From NCBI RefSeq assembly GCF_000226255.1, contig NZ_AGFG01000064.1, positions 1 through 64,000 of the forward strand: DNA of 64,000 nucleotides, in the 5' to 3' direction. Below, piece by piece: positions 6,403 through 44,624 of the stretch (the stretch's first letter is position 1; every line of letters starts with the position of its first letter). The position numbers and the translations under genes are program-made. The notes under the pieces are model-generated. The model did no database searches, was not told the origin of the DNA, and saw nothing but the letters and a program-made list of their open reading frames with translations. The stretch comes from Desulfovibrio sp. A2. Its GTDB lineage: Bacteria; Desulfobacterota; Desulfovibrionia; Desulfovibrionales; Desulfovibrionaceae.

Positions 6403-6736
6403 ACGTGGAAGGGGGCGGGTGGTCCGGGCGACTCCGTGCCGGGGTGCCGGTCCGTGTCGGCCTGCACCGGGGGCGCGGCGCGTGGCCAATCGGGCCAATC
6501 GGGCCAGTCGGGCGGGGCCGCCGGGCAATGCCGGGACTATAAGGATTCGCGCGGCGAAGGGGAAGGGCATGCGCGCCACGGAACGGGAGTTCGGGCACTG
6601 GCGGGGGACGGTGGGGCAGGGATGCGCGTCACGGCGATCTGGCGCTGGCAGCCTCGCCCGAACCGCGTCGTGCCGCCCGACCGCCGGACCGTGCCCGGCG
6701 GCCACGAGCCCCGTGCGGGGCGGGAACCCCGGCGCG
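6403..6736. other. Intergenic stretch without a gene; contains a second 9-bp array
   Basis: No credible coding region is seen between the adaptor gene and the 327-aa gene. It holds a 9-bp array at 6484-6510 (GGCCAATCG, GGCCAATCG, GGCCAGTCG) and a short GCCCCG/CGGGGC hairpin at 6708-6721 that has no U-tract. The promoter of the exporter operon probably lies here but I cannot place it. Confidence 0.5.
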
Positions 6737-17136: not shown

Positions 17137-17166
17137 CTGCCAATTCTGCCAATTCTGCCAATTCTG
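17137..17166. repeat. 9-bp exact tandem repeat CTGCCAATT x3
   Basis: Three exact copies of CTGCCAATT followed by CTG, in the untranslated region after the RRM gene. Confidence 0.85.
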
Positions 17167-32071: not shown

Positions 32072-32196
32072 GGGGCGTCCGTGGGGTGATTGCGGGTATG
32101 TGGGGGCAGGGCGCCCGATGTCGGAGTCGCCGGAGTCGCCGGGGCTGCCATGTCTGTCAGGGCTGCCAGGGCTGCCAGCTCTGTCGGACCTGCCGC

Positions 32197-32664
32197 CTAT
32201 GCGTCGGCGTCGGCCAGGCGCAGCACCGTTGCGAATTCCAGGGGGCTCACCGGCTGTACCGACAGGCGGCTGCCCTTGCGCAGAAGCTCCATGTCCGCCA
32301 GTTCCGGCAGGGTGCGCAGTTGGGCCAGCGGCACTGGCCGGGCAAAGGTGCGCACCAGCCGCACGTCCACCATGAACCAGCGGGGCGCATCCGGCGTGGA
32401 GGCCGGGTCGAAGTGGCGGTCCTCCGGGTCCCATGCGGTGTGGTCGGGGTAGGCCTCGCGCACGATTTCCACCACCCCGGCCACCGAGGGGTTGGTGACG
32501 CTGTGGTAGAACAGCCCAAGGTCGCCCAGGCGCATCTCGCGCATGAAGTTGCGGGCCTGGTAGTTGCGCACGCCGTCCCAACTGGAGGTTGCGCCGGGCA
32601 GGGCGGCCAGGTGGGCGATGGAGAAGCAGCCGGGCTCGGTCTTGAACAGCCAGTGGCGGGGCAT
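32197..32664 (-). CDS. EVE-domain protein
   Basis: A 155-residue single EVE domain (PUA-like fold). The start MPRHWLFKTEPGCFSIAHL, WDGVRNYQARNFMREMRLGDLGLFYHS and PRWFMVDVRLVRTFARPVPL are the family signature. EVE proteins bind modified bases in DNA or RNA. AAGGAGG lies 6 nt before the ATG at 32664. It is divergent from the FliM/FliG-like gene, with about 146 bp between. Confidence 0.92.
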   Translation of the reverse strand: MPRHWLFKTEPGCFSIAHLAALPGATSSWDGVRNYQARNFMREMRLGDLGLFYHSVTNPSVAGVVEIVREAYPDHTAWDPEDRHFDPASTPDAPRWFMVDVRLVRTFARPVPLAQLRTLPELADMELLRKGSRLSVQPVSPLEFATVLRLADADA

Positions 32665-32810: not shown

Positions 32811-35312
32811 ATGAAGGAGCGCAGGCCACCCCACCGCAAGGTGCTTCCCTTCCGCCGCGCCCGGCGCATTGCCGGAAGCGGCGGTGGCGGCGATGCGCCC
32901 GGCGGGCAATCACGCCTGTCCCCAGGGGCCGCAGGGTCTGGCGAGCCCGGCGGGTCTGGCGGGGCGGGCTCGTTTGTTGCCCCGAGTACCCCGAATGCGC
33001 CGGGGGCAGAGGACGGCGGATTCCCTGCGCCCGAACTGGTGGTGGTGCAGGGAGGCGGCAGGAGCCGCGTCCCCCGTTCCCTGGGGGCCGGAGTTCTCGG
33101 TTTTCGCGATGTTCCTCCGGGCCGGGCTTCCTCCGGCCAGCTTCCCCCGGACGAGCCAGCCGGGCCAGCCGGGCCGCTCGGCCGCGTGCCCGGCCCGCTG
33201 CGCTGCACCGATGGCCTCACCGGCCTGCGCGACCTGCTCCCCCGCCCCGGCGGCGGGCTGCCGGTGTTGCGCCGTCTGCCGTTGCTGGAACGCATCGTGC
33301 GCCGCTTCGCCGACGCGGCGGCCCGGCGCATGGGCGCGCTGTGCGGGGTGGGCTGCGAGGTCATCCCCGGAGAGACCCGGCTGTACGACATGGCCGGTTG
33401 CGCCGGGCTGCTGGCGCGGCCCGCCATGCACCGCTTCGGGGTGGTGCCGCTGGAAGGCACGGCCGCGCTGCTGTTCGACCATCCCCTGCGCGAAACGGCC
33501 ACCTGGCTGGCGCTGGGGGTGGACCCGCGCGTGATGGCCGGGGCGTGGACCGGAACCGACGACGACTCCATGTCCCTGCAGCCGGGGTCGCCCGGTTCGT
33601 TCGGTTCCTTCGGTTCGTTCGGGCCGCTCGGCCCTCCCGGAACTTCCGGGTCCGGGGGGCGCAACGGCTGGCGGCCGGGTCATGCAGAGGCCGGGCTGTG
33701 CGCGCACCTTGGCCGCCAGTTGCAACTGGACCTGGAATGGGCCTTCCTGCCCTATTTCGAAATTGAGACCTCGGGCTGCGACGCGCTCCCCGGCGAGCCG
33801 GGCCAGCCCGTCCACGCGCGCGAGGCGTTGCGCCCCGACTGGACGGCCCTTGGCGAGCCGCTGGTGGCCACGCCCTTCGAGGTGGTGCTGCACTGGCCGT
33901 CCCCCGTTTCCCCCCCCGCGCCTTCCCCGCCGTCCATTCCGCAGGAACTGGCCCCCCCGGCGCGGCGTGGGCCCTGTGCACCTTGGGGTGGCCACCTGAT
34001 GCTGGCGTTGCCCCTGGCCATGCTGTTGCCGCTGGCGGACCTGCTGGCCGACGAGGCCGTGCTGCTGGCCCCGGAGCAGACCGAAACCGCCGAATCGGCC
34101 CATGATCGGTTGCAGGTGCTGTCCGACGCGGAACTGGCCAAACATCTGGCAGGGGGGCATCCGCAGACGGCGGCGGTGGTGGCGGCCCGGCTGGCCCCGC
34201 TGCGGCGCGACGCCGTGCTGGCGTTGCTGGGGCCGGAGCTAGGGGCCGAGGTGCGGCGGCGCATGGCCCGGCGGCGGCTGTTCCGGCAGGTGCTGTCGCC
34301 GGAACAGCGCTTTGTGGTGCGCACCCTGGCGCTGGGCGAGGTGCATGCCGCGCAGACCCTGGCGGCCCTGCGTCCCGAGGCGGCGGCCCGCTTCGTGAAG
34401 GTGATGCGCGGCCTGGGTTCGCTGTACGCGGAGCAGGTGGAGGCCGTGCTGCGCGACGACGGCGCGGGTCTGGCCGGTGCGGAGGACCTGGTGCTGGAAG
34501 GCGAGGCGCAGGTGCGCCGCCTGCTCATGCGGGCGCTGGGGCCGGACGACATGCGCGAGGTGCGGGCCTGCCTTGATGCGGCAGACGCGGCAGACGCTGC
34601 GGCGGGGTCCGCCGGAGATTCCGAAGCCAACGGGACTGCCGAGGCGGAAAGGGACGGCGAGGCTGCGCCGGGCAGCGGCCCCGGAGACGGACAGGCCCGC
34701 CGTCACGGTGCGGATGCGTCGCATGGCGTGGAGCCCTTCGCGCTGCTGCTGGGGGTGCCCGCCGTGACCCTGGCCCGCCTGCTGACGGCCGAGGGGCTGG
34801 CCGTGGCCGTGGCCGTGCTGCGCCACTTGGCCGTGCGCGATGCGCGGCGGGCGGCGGCGGTGCTGGGCGCGTTGCCCACGGCGTGGGCCGGGCCGGTGGC
34901 CGTGGCCCTTTCGCCCGAAGGCGGACCGGTGGGAGAAGGGGGCGCATGCCCGGTGCGGGGGCGCGGGCCCGCCCGCTCCTCGACTGGTGCAATGGGCGCA
35001 ATGGGCGCGGCGGGATCGCTGGAAGCGCTGCTGGTGGTGGAAAACGCCTTGTGCCGCGCCCTGCCGGAAGAGCATTCCTGCCGGGTGCTGGCCATGCCCG
35101 CGCGGCGCGAGGAGGCGGGGCGGGATGCGCCGCCCGCCACGGCGCTGGCCGCGCTGCTGCGCCATGGCGGGGACGCCGTGCGCGAGGCCGCATTGCATGC
35201 CCTGCGCCGTCACCGCGCGGGCAAGCTGGGGTCCGAGGATCGCACGCGGGATGGCGCGCGGCCAGCAACGGACGGCGCGCCGCCGTTCCCTTCCGATGAC
35301 GATGTCTGCTGA
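32811..35312 (+). CDS. FliM/FliG-like flagellar switch fusion protein (novel architecture)
   Basis: An 833-residue protein whose domains I read as follows. Residues 1-145 are Gly/Pro/Arg-rich and disordered. Residues about 150-415 resemble the FliM middle (CheC-like) domain: LERIVRRFADAAARRM, FGVVPLEGTAALLFDHPL, LDLEWAFLPYFEIE and a final LMLALPLAMLLPLADLL; a disordered insert with GSFGSF repeats interrupts it. Residues about 435-490 contain a FliG-middle-like repeat with GHPQT (compare EHPQT). Residues about 500-590 look like FliG-N (LGEVHAAQTLAAL...LLMRALG), and 641-700 like a second FliG middle repeat. No SpoA domain and no clear FliG C-terminal torque helix are seen. All family links are from motif reading. 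It may be a flagellar switch accessory, or a diverged paralogue used elsewhere. Confidence 0.65.
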   Translation: MKERRPPHRKVLPFRRARRIAGSGGGGDAPGGQSRLSPGAAGSGEPGGSGGAGSFVAPSTPNAPGAEDGGFPAPELVVVQGGGRSRVPRSLGAGVLGFRDVPPGRASSGQLPPDEPAGPAGPLGRVPGPLRCTDGLTGLRDLLPRPGGGLPVLRRLPLLERIVRRFADAAARRMGALCGVGCEVIPGETRLYDMAGCAGLLARPAMHRFGVVPLEGTAALLFDHPLRETATWLALGVDPRVMAGAWTGTDDDSMSLQPGSPGSFGSFGSFGPLGPPGTSGSGGRNGWRPGHAEAGLCAHLGRQLQLDLEWAFLPYFEIETSGCDALPGEPGQPVHAREALRPDWTALGEPLVATPFEVVLHWPSPVSPPAPSPPSIPQELAPPARRGPCAPWGGHLMLALPLAMLLPLADLLADEAVLLAPEQTETAESAHDRLQVLSDAELAKHLAGGHPQTAAVVAARLAPLRRDAVLALLGPELGAEVRRRMARRRLFRQVLSPEQRFVVRTLALGEVHAAQTLAALRPEAAARFVKVMRGLGSLYAEQVEAVLRDDGAGLAGAEDLVLEGEAQVRRLLMRALGPDDMREVRACLDAADAADAAAGSAGDSEANGTAEAERDGEAAPGSGPGDGQARRHGADASHGVEPFALLLGVPAVTLARLLTAEGLAVAVAVLRHLAVRDARRAAAVLGALPTAWAGPVAVALSPEGGPVGEGGACPVRGRGPARSSTGAMGAMGAAGSLEALLVVENALCRALPEEHSCRVLAMPARREEAGRDAPPATALAALLRHGGDAVREAALHALRRHRAGKLGSEDRTRDGARPATDGAPPFPSDDDVC

Positions 35313-35438: not shown

Positions 35439-37745
35439 TCAGCGCCCGCCCTTGCCAAACCGTCCCGCCTTGCCGTTCCGCCCCGCCTGTCCGCTCTGTC
35501 CGTCGCTTCCAGCGTCGCGGTTTCCACGATTCCCACGCCCTTCAGGGCCGGACCTGCCCCCCGGCCTGTCATGCTCACGCCTCGCGTCGCCGGGGCTTCC
35601 GCCCCCGGTTTCGGACCGCCCGCCCTGCCGCGAGTCCTGTCGTCCGGCCTGCCGTCCGGAACGGCCGGTTCTGTCCGTTTCGCAGCGGTCGTCCCGGTTG
35701 CCCTGTCCTTCCGGTCGTGGCCCCCGTCCCGGCCGCCGGTCAGGTCGCCGGTCGGGGCGTTCGTCGGCCCGGCCCTGCGCGCGCCCGTCCTTCCTGCCCC
35801 CCGCGCCGGGCGGCAGGCCGAAGTCGGGTATCAGGATGCGATGCTGGCGCAGCCGTTCCGCGTCGGTGCGGGCCACGGGCACGGGCTTGCCCTCGGGGTC
35901 GATGCCCGCGAAGAACATGGCCGTGGCCACGGTGCCGGGGGTGGGAATGAAGCATTGCACCTGTTTGGGCGACCAGCCGCGTGCGGCCAGCCAGCGGGCC
36001 AGGGTGCGCATGTCGTCGTCGGTGCAGCCGGGAAAGGCGCTGAGCAGGTAGGGCACCACGTACTGCTCCTTGCCCGCCGCCGTCGAATGGTCGGCGAAGG
36101 CCGTCAGGAACCGCTCGAACACCCCGAGGCCGGGTTTGCGCATCAGGTTCAGCACCCGGTCGCAGATGTGCTCCGGGGCCACCTTCAGCTGGCCGCCGGT
36201 GAATTCCATGGTGTAGGCGCGCAGGGCTTCATCGTCGCGCAGGGCCAGGTCGAAGCGCACTCCGCTGGCCACGCGTACGTGGCGCACGCCGGGGGTGGCG
36301 CGCACCGCGCGCAGTAGTTCCACGGCCTCGGACTGGTTCACGGCGAATCCGGGGCACACGCGCGGGTGCGTGCAGCTTGCCCGGCGGCAGCGGGCCGGGT
36401 CCAGCGTGCAGCGGGCGTTCCACATGTTGGCGCTGGGGCCGCCCACGTCGCTGATGGAACCGTTGAAGCGCTCCATGTCGTTCAGGCGGCGGGCCTCATC
36501 CAGCACCGAATCGCGGCTGCGCGAGGCGATGTGCCGCCCCTGGTGCAGGGCCAGCGAACAGAACGAGCAGCCGCCCCCGCACCCCCGGTGGGTGGTGATG
36601 CTGGTGCGGATCATTTCCTCGGCGGGGACGGGTTCGCGGTGGGACGGGTGCGCCCGCCGGGCGAAGGGCAGGGCGTACAGCGCGTCCATTTCCCGTGGCG
36701 ACAGGGGCGGCGCGGGCGGGGCCAGCAGCACTGCGCGGGCGGCCCTGAGGTCCGGGGTGTCGTCCACGGGCTGGATGGCCCGCGCGTCGCCACGGTGCAC
36801 GTGGCGCTCCAGCAGCAGGGTGGCGCGCATGAGCAGGCGCGGGTCCGCCGTGATGGCGGCGTGCGAGGGCAGGCGCATGACCGGGGCGGCGGTGTCGTTG
36901 CCTTCGTCGCCGCCGTCGCCGTCGTCAGGCTGGTCGGCGCTCTCCCGCGCGGCATCGTCCGCCGGGGCCGCGTCCCATTCCGCCACGCGGCCCATGCGGG
37001 CGGTGCCGGGAATGGCGTCGAAAATTTCCGCGAGCGGGGGCAGCAGGGCGGCGTCGTATTCGTCCGCGCCCACCGCCTCCACGGCTTTGTCCAGCGCGCA
37101 GGCCGCGTCCAGCAGGGCGCGTTCGCCCATGCCCCACACCAGCAGGTCGGCCTTGGCGTCCAGCAGGATGGGCCGTCGCAGCGCGTCGGTCCAGAAATCG
37201 TAGTGGCTGATGCGCCGCAAGGATGCCTCTATGCCGCCCAGCACCACGGGCAGGCCGGGAAATGCCTGGCGCGCCAGATTGGCGTAGACGATGGCCGCCC
37301 GGTTGGGGCGCGCCCCGGCGCGGCCGCCGGGGGTGAAGGCGTCGTCGTGGCGCTTTTTGCGGAAGGCGGTGTAGTGGGCCAGCATGGAATCCAGCGCGCC
37401 CGCCGAAATGCCGGTGAACAGGCGGGGGCGGCCCATGCGGGCCACGTCGTCCGTCTGATGTGGCGCGTCCCAGCGGGGCTGGGCCACGATGCCGGTGCGA
37501 AAGCCGTGCGCCACCAGCCAGCGGCCCAGCAGGGCCACGGCAAAGGTGGGGTGGTCCACGTAGGCGTCGCCGGAAACGAGCAGCACGTCCAGCCGGTCCC
37601 AGCCAAGCTCGCGCATCTCGCGCGTGGTTGTGGGCAGAAAGGCGGGCTGGGGCAGGGGCGTGCGGCCCCGCGTGGGCCGGTATGCCGCAGGTTGCGCGCC
37701 GTCGCAGGTGCGGGCGCGCTGGCTGTCGTGGCTGGAATGTCGCAT
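35439..37745 (-). CDS. YgiQ-family radical SAM protein with RG-rich tail
   Basis: A 768-residue YgiQ-type radical SAM protein. The YgiQ N-terminal domain ([31 protein letters not shown]) is followed by the radical SAM core with its 4Fe-4S motif in [10 protein letters not shown] and the expected downstream [10 protein letters not shown], then a YgiQ C-terminal region. The last ~120 residues are rich in Arg, Gly, Asp and Gln ([17 protein letters not shown]), presumably disordered. The biochemical reaction of YgiQ is unknown. Start at 37745 opens the conserved N-terminus; longer in-frame extensions are not conserved-looking. It is divergent from the hybrid kinase. Confidence 0.85.
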
Positions 37746-37837
37746 GCGCGGACTATAGTGGCGGGCAGGGGGGCACGCAAGGCGCATGCGCCGTTTTGCC
37801 GCGCGGCGGGTGGGCCCGTGCGGGGAAGTGCAGGGCC

Positions 37838-37867
37838 GGACAGTGCCGGACAGTGCCGGAGAGGGCC
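37838..37867. repeat. 10-bp tandem repeat between divergent genes
   Basis: GGACAGTGCC is repeated in the sequence GCCGGACAGTGCCGGACAGTGCCGGAGA. It lies in the 247-bp divergent region of the YgiQ-type and kinase genes, which otherwise shows no gene. Confidence 0.6.
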
Positions 37868-37992
37868 GCCCACCGGCCTGGTCGGCCAGCCCGCCCGTTG
37901 CCCGGGACGCCGTGCGGCGGTTGCGTTTGGCCCCGGTTTCGCGCACTATGCCGGTTGCCCCCCGGACAACGGGGGAACCCCGTGAGGACGCC

Positions 37993-41349
<3,357 letters not shown>

Positions 41350-41915: not shown

Positions 41916-42161
41916 GGTGCCTCCTGCGGGCTTCGGGTTGCGGGCGCGGGCATGCGCCCCGTGAGGTGGGTGGGGCGCGGTGCGTGGTCCGTACCGCCAT
42001 GTATAGGCCCGTGGCGGTGTTGGTCAACCGCAGTAAGCGCAAGGCCGCATGATCGCAGGGGCCATGGCGGCGGCGTGAAGGCCGCGCCTGCCGCCGCGCG
42101 CGCGGGTTTGAATGCCTTCGGGGCACGCCGACATGGCCGGAAAAGGGGCGGAAAAGGGGCG

Positions 42162-42202
42162 AGAAAAGGCCGGGACGCGGGCATCCCCGTCGTCCCGGCC
42201 TT
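42162..42202 (-). terminator. Terminator of chemoreceptor gene
   Basis: AAGGCCGGGACG (42166-42177) and CGTCCCGGCCTT (42191-42202) form a perfect 12-bp stem; TTTT follows on the minus strand. The remaining 41916-42161 sequence, upstream of the EF-hand gene, shows no gene. Confidence 0.88.
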
Positions 42203-42231
42203 CAGGCGTGCCGGATGTCCGGTGCGGCTGC

Positions 42232-44286
42232 TTACGCGGCCGTGGCTTCCTGCTTCATGGCGTCGATGACCGTCTTCATGGCCTGCGACTGGCGGGCCAG
42301 TTCGGTCACGGCCAGGGACGACTGGCGCATGGCGTCGGAGGTTTCGGCCGAGATGCGGCTGATGTCCTCGATGGAACGGTTGATTTCCTCGCTGGTGGCC
42401 GACTGCTGCTCCGCCGCCGTGGCGATGGAACGCACCTGCTCCGAGGTCACCTCCACCAGTTGCACGATGGCCTGCAACGCGTCGCCCGACTTGTTGGCGA
42501 GCCCCGTGGCCGTGTCGATGAGGTGCACCGCCTGCTCCACGTTGTCGATGTTGCGGCGGGTGCCGTGCTGGATGTTGCGGATGGCGTCGCCCACCTCGCG
42601 GGTGGCGTTCATGGTCTTTTCCGCCAGTTTGCGCACCTCGTCGGCGACAACGGCAAAGCCGCGCCCGGCATCCCCGGCGCGGGCCGCTTCGATGGCCGCG
42701 TTCAGCGCCAGCAGGTTGGTCTGGTCGGCGATGTCGCTGATCACGTTCATCACCTGGCCGATGCCCTCGGCCTGCGCCCCCAGGGTTTGCATATCCTCTT
42801 TCAGGGACAGCGCCTGGGTCTGCGCCTCGCCGATGCTGCGCACCGCGTCGGTGACCACGGTGGCCCCGTCCTCGGCCCTGCCCCTGGCGTTCTCGGCCGA
42901 TTCGGCGGCTTGCGAGGCGTTGCGGGCCACCTCTATGACCGTGGCGTTCATTTCCTCCATGGCGGTGGCCGTCTCGCCCACGCGGGCGCTTTGGCCTTCC
43001 GCCCCCTTGCTGGACTGCTCGACCTGCGCGGAAAGTTCTTCCGACGCGGAGGTGACGATTTCCACCACGCTTTCCAGCTTGGCCGCGGCCTGCAACATGC
43101 CTTCGGCACGGGCGCGTTCGGCGGCGGCGCGGGCTTCTTCCGCATCGCGTCCGGCCTTTGCCGCCCGGGCGGATTCCTCGTTGGCCATGCGGGTCTTCTC
43201 GTCCGCCTCGGCGATCTTGCCCTTCAGGCTGTCGACCATGGTGCGCAGGCTGTCGGCCAGCTTGCCGATCTCGTTGCGCTGGGAAAGGTGCAGGGTGTTG
43301 TCCAGGTTGCCCGCCGCCACGTCCGATGCATAGGCTTCCAGCTGCTTGATGGGCCGTACGGCCATGCGGTCGAGGGCGAACAGGCTGACCCCGATGAGGG
43401 CCAGCACCGCCACCACGCCCAGGGTGATCATGTGGTTGCGCTGTTCCACGGCGGGCGCGGCGATTTCGTCCATGTCCATGGTCACGCCGAGAATCCAGTT
43501 CCAGTTGGGCACGCGGGTCCAGGTCAGCATCACTTCGCGACCGTCGCGGGTAAAGGTGCCCTGGCCTTGCGGCGCGGCGATCATGGCGGCGATGCCGGGT
43601 TCGGCGGAGATGTCCTTGAGGATCAGCGCGTCGTCGGGGTGGCCGATGACGATGCCCTTGGGCGAAAGGAAGAAGGGATGGCCTGTGGTGCCTATCCTTA
43701 CGGATTCCACATAGTTGTCCACAAGGCCGTCGATGGCGTAGGACATGCCCACGCCACCCAGCACCTTGCCCGCCTCGTCGAAGATGGGTGCTGCCACGCT
43801 GATGATGAGCTTGCCCGTGGCCAGGCTTTTGGTGGGGGAGGAACTGTAGCCCTCGTTTCCGGCCAGGGCCGCCTTGATGTATTCGCGGTCGGCGAGGTGG
43901 TTGGGCTTGCCCACCTTGCCCTGCGCCCGCAGGATGACCTGGGTGCCCTGCGCGTTGAACAGGTAGAAGGTGTTCACCCCCGGCGCGGCCAGCGACATGG
44001 AGGTGATGACCTCTGCCGCCGCGCCTTCCAGGGCAGTGTCGCCCAGCAGGAACTGGCGCAGCACCGGCACCCTGGACGTGCCGCGCATCATGTCCACCTG
44101 GCGCAAGCCGAAGTCCGAGGCCGACTTGGAGATGGTGTCGGCCATCAGGGTCATTTCGTGGCTTCTGGAGGCCATGCCGTCGTCGAAGCTGGATTTGGCC
44201 ACCATCACGATCAGGGCCGACTGTATCAGCAGTACGACGCCCCCGATGATGACCAGCATGGCAGTGCGAATGCTCTGCGAGACCAT
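42232..44286 (-). CDS. Methyl-accepting chemotaxis protein with dCache-like sensor domain
   Basis: A 684-residue chemoreceptor. TM1 (about 8-30), a large periplasmic sensor domain (about 31-275) with DxxYxxA-like and GxxY features typical of double-Cache domains, TM2 (about 280-302), HAMP (about 303-355), then a long signalling coiled coil. The hairpin tip reads [51 protein letters not shown], the invariant CheW/CheA contact region. The C-terminus lacks a CheR pentapeptide (ends ATAA). A promoter with TAGACA-N17-TTAGAT lies upstream. Ligand unknown. Confidence 0.95.
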
Positions 44287-44341
44287 GTCTGCCCTCTCCC
44301 TGGTTCGGTAGGTGAGTGTGTCATGTACGGAATGGTCTTGT

Positions 44342-44370
44342 ATCTAACATCGCACTTCGGGCAATGTCTA
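44342..44370 (-). promoter_or_regulatory. Candidate sigma-70-type promoter for chemoreceptor gene
   Basis: Read on the minus strand: TAGACA (-35), 17 nt, TTAGAT (-10), about 55 nt before the ATG at 44286. No sigma-28 TAAAGTTT-type element was seen. The remaining upstream sequence to 44624 holds no gene. Confidence 0.5.
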
Positions 44371-44624
44371 TAGACTGGTGCCGTGCGCAATCGCTCGTCG
44401 CTTCTGGTGCGGCGTATCAAAGAGCAGTCGATTGTCATGTGTTCCGGTAAGATGCAGTTCCGGCACATCTTCATGAGAGCGGGAGGAAAAGTGTAAAGCC
44501 AGGCGCGGGGAGACGCTCGTGGGCGGAAGAAGGCCGTGGAGCTTCGCGCGACGGGCGCTGCGATGGACACGGGCGTGGCATTGCGGATGGGCGTGCCTGC
44601 CCGCAACGCCCGGAACGGCAAGCG

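Follow-up and report, generated by a model that had tools for sequence, protein, structure and literature searches.

A central question of flagellar motor biology is how the contact between FliM and FliG passes on the switch signal; in the motors known to us the two are separate proteins. Does a locus of Desulfovibrio sp. A2 join them in one chain, and what might such a chain do? The window analyzed here, the first 64,000 nucleotides of contig NZ_AGFG01000064.1 (RefSeq assembly GCF_000226255.1), contains the single open reading frame (ORF) that a first-pass annotation, made from the letters alone, had placed at 32811..35312; it lies on the forward strand, starts with ATG and stays open for 833 codons. 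That annotation had suspected a natural FliM–FliG fusion, and the suspicion stands, since both halves match by profile and crossed controls fail. The architecture is FliM_M–FliG_M–FliG_N–FliG_M, an order that rests on domain-by-domain profile matches assigning each piece. Homology of these domains to FliM and FliG is close to certain.

In the FliG-like region, Pfam places FliG_M at residues 441–487 of the window protein (two stretches, E = 4.2e-9) and FliG_N at 505–587 (E = 8.5e-9), both above the gathering score; the NCBIfam fliG equivalog scores 27.4 bits where its cut-off is 226.7. Profile–profile comparison of the FliG-like slice, built from 10 of the 14 orthologues, with 14 true FliG proteins (from 15 extracted out of 17 loci) yielded a match across the N and M domains with a probability of 98.8 and E = 7e-17, and the score of 115.6 compares with a maximum of 25.0 in 200 column shuffles. 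With domain-wise profiles, residues ~427–494 matched FliG_M at 94.8, residues 493–592 matched FliG_N at 98.1, and residues 639–751 matched FliG_M at 94.5, while all six off-diagonal domain pairs stayed at or below 8.0. These assignments bear out the FliG-middle, FliG-N and second FliG-middle patterns previously read at about 435–490, about 500–590 and 641–700, respectively. Compared with each other, the first and last FliG-like pieces of the family reach 15.6 only, and the last two domains are colinear with FliG over 176 columns of a joint alignment. With E values up to 10 allowed, PF03448 matches all 14 members, a likeness to the FlgY/YlxF-type proteins treated below; in the 11 members inspected it falls below its cut-off. 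For the armadillo-like (ARM) part, the VIA-align lists contain unrelated helical proteins with low Z scores, from which we draw no conclusion.

The FliM region of the window protein gave no FliM match in Pfam, and PF02154 matched four of the 14 orthologues, all below its cut-off (best E = 8e-4). Because the window protein alone lacked a Pfam FliM match, profiles of orthologues were used for the FliM test. The FliM-like slice (14 rows) matched 20 true FliM proteins (from 27 extracted out of 30 loci) over 175 columns, with a probability of 95.6 and a single-pair E of 1.3e-8; its score was 61.5, against a column-shuffle maximum of 24.6 (200 shuffles). Crossed controls, in which the FliM-like and FliG-like slices were compared with the other family, reached a probability of 0.2. 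Profile diversity is low (Neff, the effective number of sequences, 2.6 and 1.7), and the joint alignments include 11 of the 14 and 9 of the 10 family rows. The predicted structure of residues 146–422 superposes on FliM, and chains of CheC, FliY and CheX rank below FliM in both structure-comparison lists. Thus, the FliM middle domain formerly read at about 150–415 is recovered by profile and by fold, the structural comparison with FliM and CheC having been suggested by the first-pass annotation. A genome search with the FliM-like profile returned 14 matches outside the family in 13 genomes; true FliM was found in all 11 loci fetched among these 14. The long tails, earlier thought to be disordered, are indeed predicted at low confidence, with a predicted local distance difference test (pLDDT) score below 50 over residues 1–151 and 755–833. 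Within the N-terminal tail lies a short conserved motif, KVLPF, in which K10 is invariant and V11 and L12 are nearly so (14 aligned rows).

Table 1. Coordinates of the fusion gene, its parts and its two conserved neighbors in the window.
Feature	Position	Strand	Remarks
Whole gene	32811..35312	+	833 aa; FliM_M–FliG_M–FliG_N–FliG_M fusion
Residues 1–150, N-terminal tail	32811..33260	+	low model confidence
Residues 151–420, FliM middle-domain homologue	33261..34070	+	
Residues 246–290, variable glycine-rich insert	33546..33680	+	within FliM-like domain
Residues 421–493, first FliG_M (armadillo-like) domain	34071..34289	+	
Residues 494–600, FliG_N domain	34290..34610	+	
Residues 601–640, linker	34611..34730	+	low model confidence
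Residues 641–758, second FliG_M domain	34731..35084	+	EHPQ lost; low-confidence stretch 704–732
Residues 759–833, C-terminal tail	35085..35309	+	low model confidence; occupies place of FliG torque domain
EVE-domain gene, conserved neighbor on one side	32212..32664	-	outside fusion
YgiQ-type radical SAM gene, conserved neighbor on other side	35439..38351	-	outside fusion

A survey of other Desulfovibrionaceae, also suggested at first pass, covered 59 relatives by protein search and 247 genomes of the family by profile search. It revealed relatives in 16 genomes of two genera, that of the window (g1) and a second one (g22). Judged by sequence, the fusion is therefore no lone oddity: its orthologues form a family that spans two genera of Desulfovibrionaceae. 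Across the class, 18 of 348 genomes match the FliM-like profile, namely the 16 carriers and two genomes (G093 and G025) whose matching ORFs, 331 and 350 aa long, have the size of FliM and are presumed to be true FliM. Because these genome searches score no more than the top candidates (3, at most 7, or 8 per genome), a divergent member could be missed. Carriers comprise six of the eight g1 genomes and all ten g22 genomes; both g1 non-carriers are drafts, of 590 and 820 contigs. Three named contigs hold relatives: a Desulfovibrio metagenome-assembled genome, Nitratidesulfovibrio liaohensis XJ01, and a third with the first 19 residues only at its contig end. Identity to the window protein is 69–70% for the other g1 members and 25–31% for the g22 members (14 full-length proteins aligned). 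A PLSDB plasmid search gave no match. The inheritance of the fusion is restricted yet stable.

Could the frame nonetheless be spurious or in decay, given that the DNA is rich in G+C? Such an origin would fit the G+C content of 75%, the long low-complexity tails and one carrier, G005, in which the gene (L034:8233-10928) reads as two overlapping open frames, owing either to a sequencing error or to a broken gene. However, full-length orthologues with conserved domains occur in loci of 44–47% G+C at 25–27% identity, the neighboring genes are conserved, and conservation spans two genera. Moreover, the ratio of nonsynonymous to synonymous substitution rates (dN/dS) between the window gene and three g1 orthologues stays below 0.5 in the domains (0.17–0.46), compared with 0.37–0.74 in the N-tail, insert and linker where defined and 0.24–0.39 in the C-tail, the ranges of domains and of tails, insert and linker overlapping. 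A spurious ORF is thus most improbable. The family alignments omit G005, for its split frame, and G006, which is cut by a contig end.

Parts of FliM and FliG are missing from the chain. No FliG torque domain was found at the C-terminus: PF01706 (FliG_C) matches only three of the 14 members, and the two matches inspected, in L101 and L103, fall on the first ARM domain. Of the 11 Pfam families that the 14 members match with E values up to 10, none is SpoA (PF01052). Both absences had been noticed at first pass. In a search for the FliM N-terminal CheY-P motif against 400 shuffles, the best tail window gave p > 0.2 in 13 of the 14 orthologues, the sole lower value being 0.015, uncorrected, in L007. 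The string VTIEEMQWLL of the low-G+C orthologues, tempting by eye as a FliM_N-like CheY motif, did not rise above shuffles.

Carriers of the fusion also possess an ordinary switch. A FliG_C match was present in 15 of the 16, the exception (G182) being an 86% complete draft, and each of the 16 encodes at least two SpoA proteins; in the g22 genomes, the presence of FliM is read from SpoA matches in FliM-sized frames. As carriers keep the normal switch genes, the fusion is extra to the switch. The same search recorded second FliG_C matches above cut-off outside the main fliG at G157:C1:2166783-2167034 and G124:C4:504910-505170, in frames of 431 and 444 aa.

Based on these data, we propose, with a probability of roughly 0.5, that the fusion is an accessory protein of the flagellar switch complex, bearing a FliM middle domain and a FliG M–N–M armadillo block in one chain. 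That it acts at the flagellar rotor appears reasonably probable, and whether it modulates the rotor rather than helps its assembly is an even call. FliG_N and FliG_M are described as the parts of FliG facing FliF and FliM (PMC6290876). Surfaces of the FliG_N-like and/or the FliG_M and FliM_M domains may contact the MS-ring/C-ring (FliF, FliG, FliM), and through such contact the fusion could extend the switch or cap it. Because the torque domain, the CheY-binding N-terminus and the FliN-binding SpoA domain were not found, a copy that inserts would generate no torque and would not sense CheY; it might shift the switching bias, slow the rotor or restrict the assembly of the C-ring. More speculatively, and doubtfully, the chain could be a natural decoy switch unit of two Desulfovibrionaceae genera that, devoid of torque, CheY and FliN modules, inserts into the rotor as an internal brake or direction lock.

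Several observations weigh against an accessory switch role; among them, the state of the contact motifs speaks most strongly against simple docking. GGXG of FliM_M contacts EHPQ of FliG_M in known switches (PMC4642947), and EHPQR is the FliM site on FliG (PMC6290876). A complete EHPQ occurs in neither M domain of any of the 14 rows: the first M domain keeps HP without E in all 14, and the last keeps an invariant E661 in all 14 without HPQ. GGXG is absent from the aligned position in all ten g22 rows (nine read from the joint alignment, the tenth, L007, from the 14-row alignment). Its position is uncertain in g1 rows because a glycine-rich insert begins there: in the four g1 rows the insert starts at the aligned GGXG site, and L031 has GGxG strings inside the insert. 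Since neither motif is kept as such, canonical docking cannot be assumed. Genomic context adds to these points. FliM and FliG, the sole flagellar genes probed in the carrier loci, do not adjoin the fusion, and none of eight window neighbors scanned by Pfam is flagellar, in agreement with the earlier placement outside any flagellar operon; an upstream pattern scan, run without a control, revealed no convincing flagellar promoter. Finally, co-occurrence with the switch is weak functional evidence because most relatives have FliM (over cut-off in 34 of the 39 tested).

The neighborhood bears equally on a second explanation, an assembly or number-control factor that stays outside the finished rotor. 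Such a factor would bind FliF/FliG or FliM at an early stage and serve as a chaperone, template or cap while the MS/C-ring is built or placed at the pole. It would place the same partner-facing domains at an earlier step, but the fusion does not adjoin flagellar genes where checked, and a FliM middle domain would be unusual for a pure FliF chaperone. We regard this factor as a possibility clearly behind the accessory switch protein.

Alternatively, the fusion might belong to a different machine, for example the sorting platform of type III secretion or an envelope machine assembled from parts that resemble the switch. A type III secretion system (T3SS) secretin scores over cut-off in five of the 16 carriers (G001, G004, G108, G135 and G166), and a third SpoA protein occurs in the same five, as such a machine might predict. 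However, the other 11 carriers, including the window's genome (G000), keep the fusion without a secretin over cut-off; thus, the fusion does not follow type III secretion, and an SctQ-like role is disfavored. The eight window neighbors scanned also show no secretion genes, although no search was aimed at these. Membership in another machine is accordingly improbable.

Compared with FliM, the fusion shares the middle domain (PF02154) but lacks a FliM_N CheY motif above shuffles, a SpoA match and, in g22, GGXG at the aligned position; it has large inserts in g1 and is joined to FliG domains. Like FliG (PF14842, FliG_N; PF14841, FliG_M), it has FliG_N followed by FliG_M, colinear over the 176 columns, but it carries an extra FliG_M ahead of FliG_N, ends without the FliG_C torque domain, and has its EHPQ remnants split between two M domains behind a FliM middle domain. 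The FliF–FliG chain (PDB 8z4d, name as listed) likewise joins two rotor partners, and its FliG part matches the FliG-like profile of the fusion; however, it links FliF to FliG, not FliM to FliG. FlgY/YlxF-type proteins contain an MgtE_N/FliG-like ARM domain and most often lie beside fliJ/fliK (PMC13023049). In structure comparison the first M domain of the fusion resembles the YlxF domain, and among FliG domains it matches FliG_M best. MotV/ZomB of Vibrio and Shewanella is an accessory motility protein tied genetically to FliG and FliM, and its loss stops tumbling (PMC8789113). It resembles the fusion as an accessory protein of a limited set of bacteria, a model of action only, with no homology claimed. 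No description of a FliM–FliG fusion was found in the literature searched (open-licence papers only). A chain with FliM and FliG modules but without torque, CheY and FliN parts would offer a tool for separating docking from force and signaling, and, if the proposal is true, an example of a regulator assembled from recombined rotor parts.

EVE and YgiQ-type radical SAM genes flank the fusion in 15 of the 16 carrier loci; in the sixteenth (L038), EVE alone is visible because a contig end cuts the locus. The two genes are direct neighbors, with nothing FliM/FliG-like between them, in two non-carriers of two other genera (L170:5773-8638 and L172:9717-12499), which apparently represent the empty site. 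None of the profiles (family, FliM or FliG) matched in the 13 non-carrier EVE loci fetched. A diadenylate-cyclase (DAC)-type gene lies between EVE and the fusion in the ten g22 loci scanned; it is divergent from the fusion (e.g., L103:7071-8483, minus strand), and its DACND-DACNH-DAC domains were read in two of the ten. This adjacency, together with FliM and FliG contact motifs that are not kept as such, would suit a cytoplasmic signaling scaffold made from switch parts, working off the motor and perhaps coupled in one genus to the DACND-DACNH-DAC neighbor. However, the DAC-type gene had no match in any of the eight g1 genomes, in a search without a positive control, and so seems unneeded for the family; the retention of domains from both partners in a single chain also suggests a switch-complex role. 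A scaffold is therefore unlikely, and the accessory switch protein remains our preferred reading.

Upstream of the fusion, a GG-N10-GC string occurs at about −200 in L101–L104 (four of the six low-G+C loci) and at about −197 to −258 in five g1 loci, in the window inside the EVE gene; one sigma-28-like string lies upstream in L098. We draw no conclusion from these strings because the scan had no shuffle control. Elsewhere in the window, Pfam matches nothing at E 0.001 in a 753-aa ORF at 42112-44373. Five window sites carry short tandem repeats of 9-bp period, 33593-33622, 6484-6513, 17137-17166, 32138-32178 and 38248-38298, the first of which lies inside the variable insert of the fusion gene.
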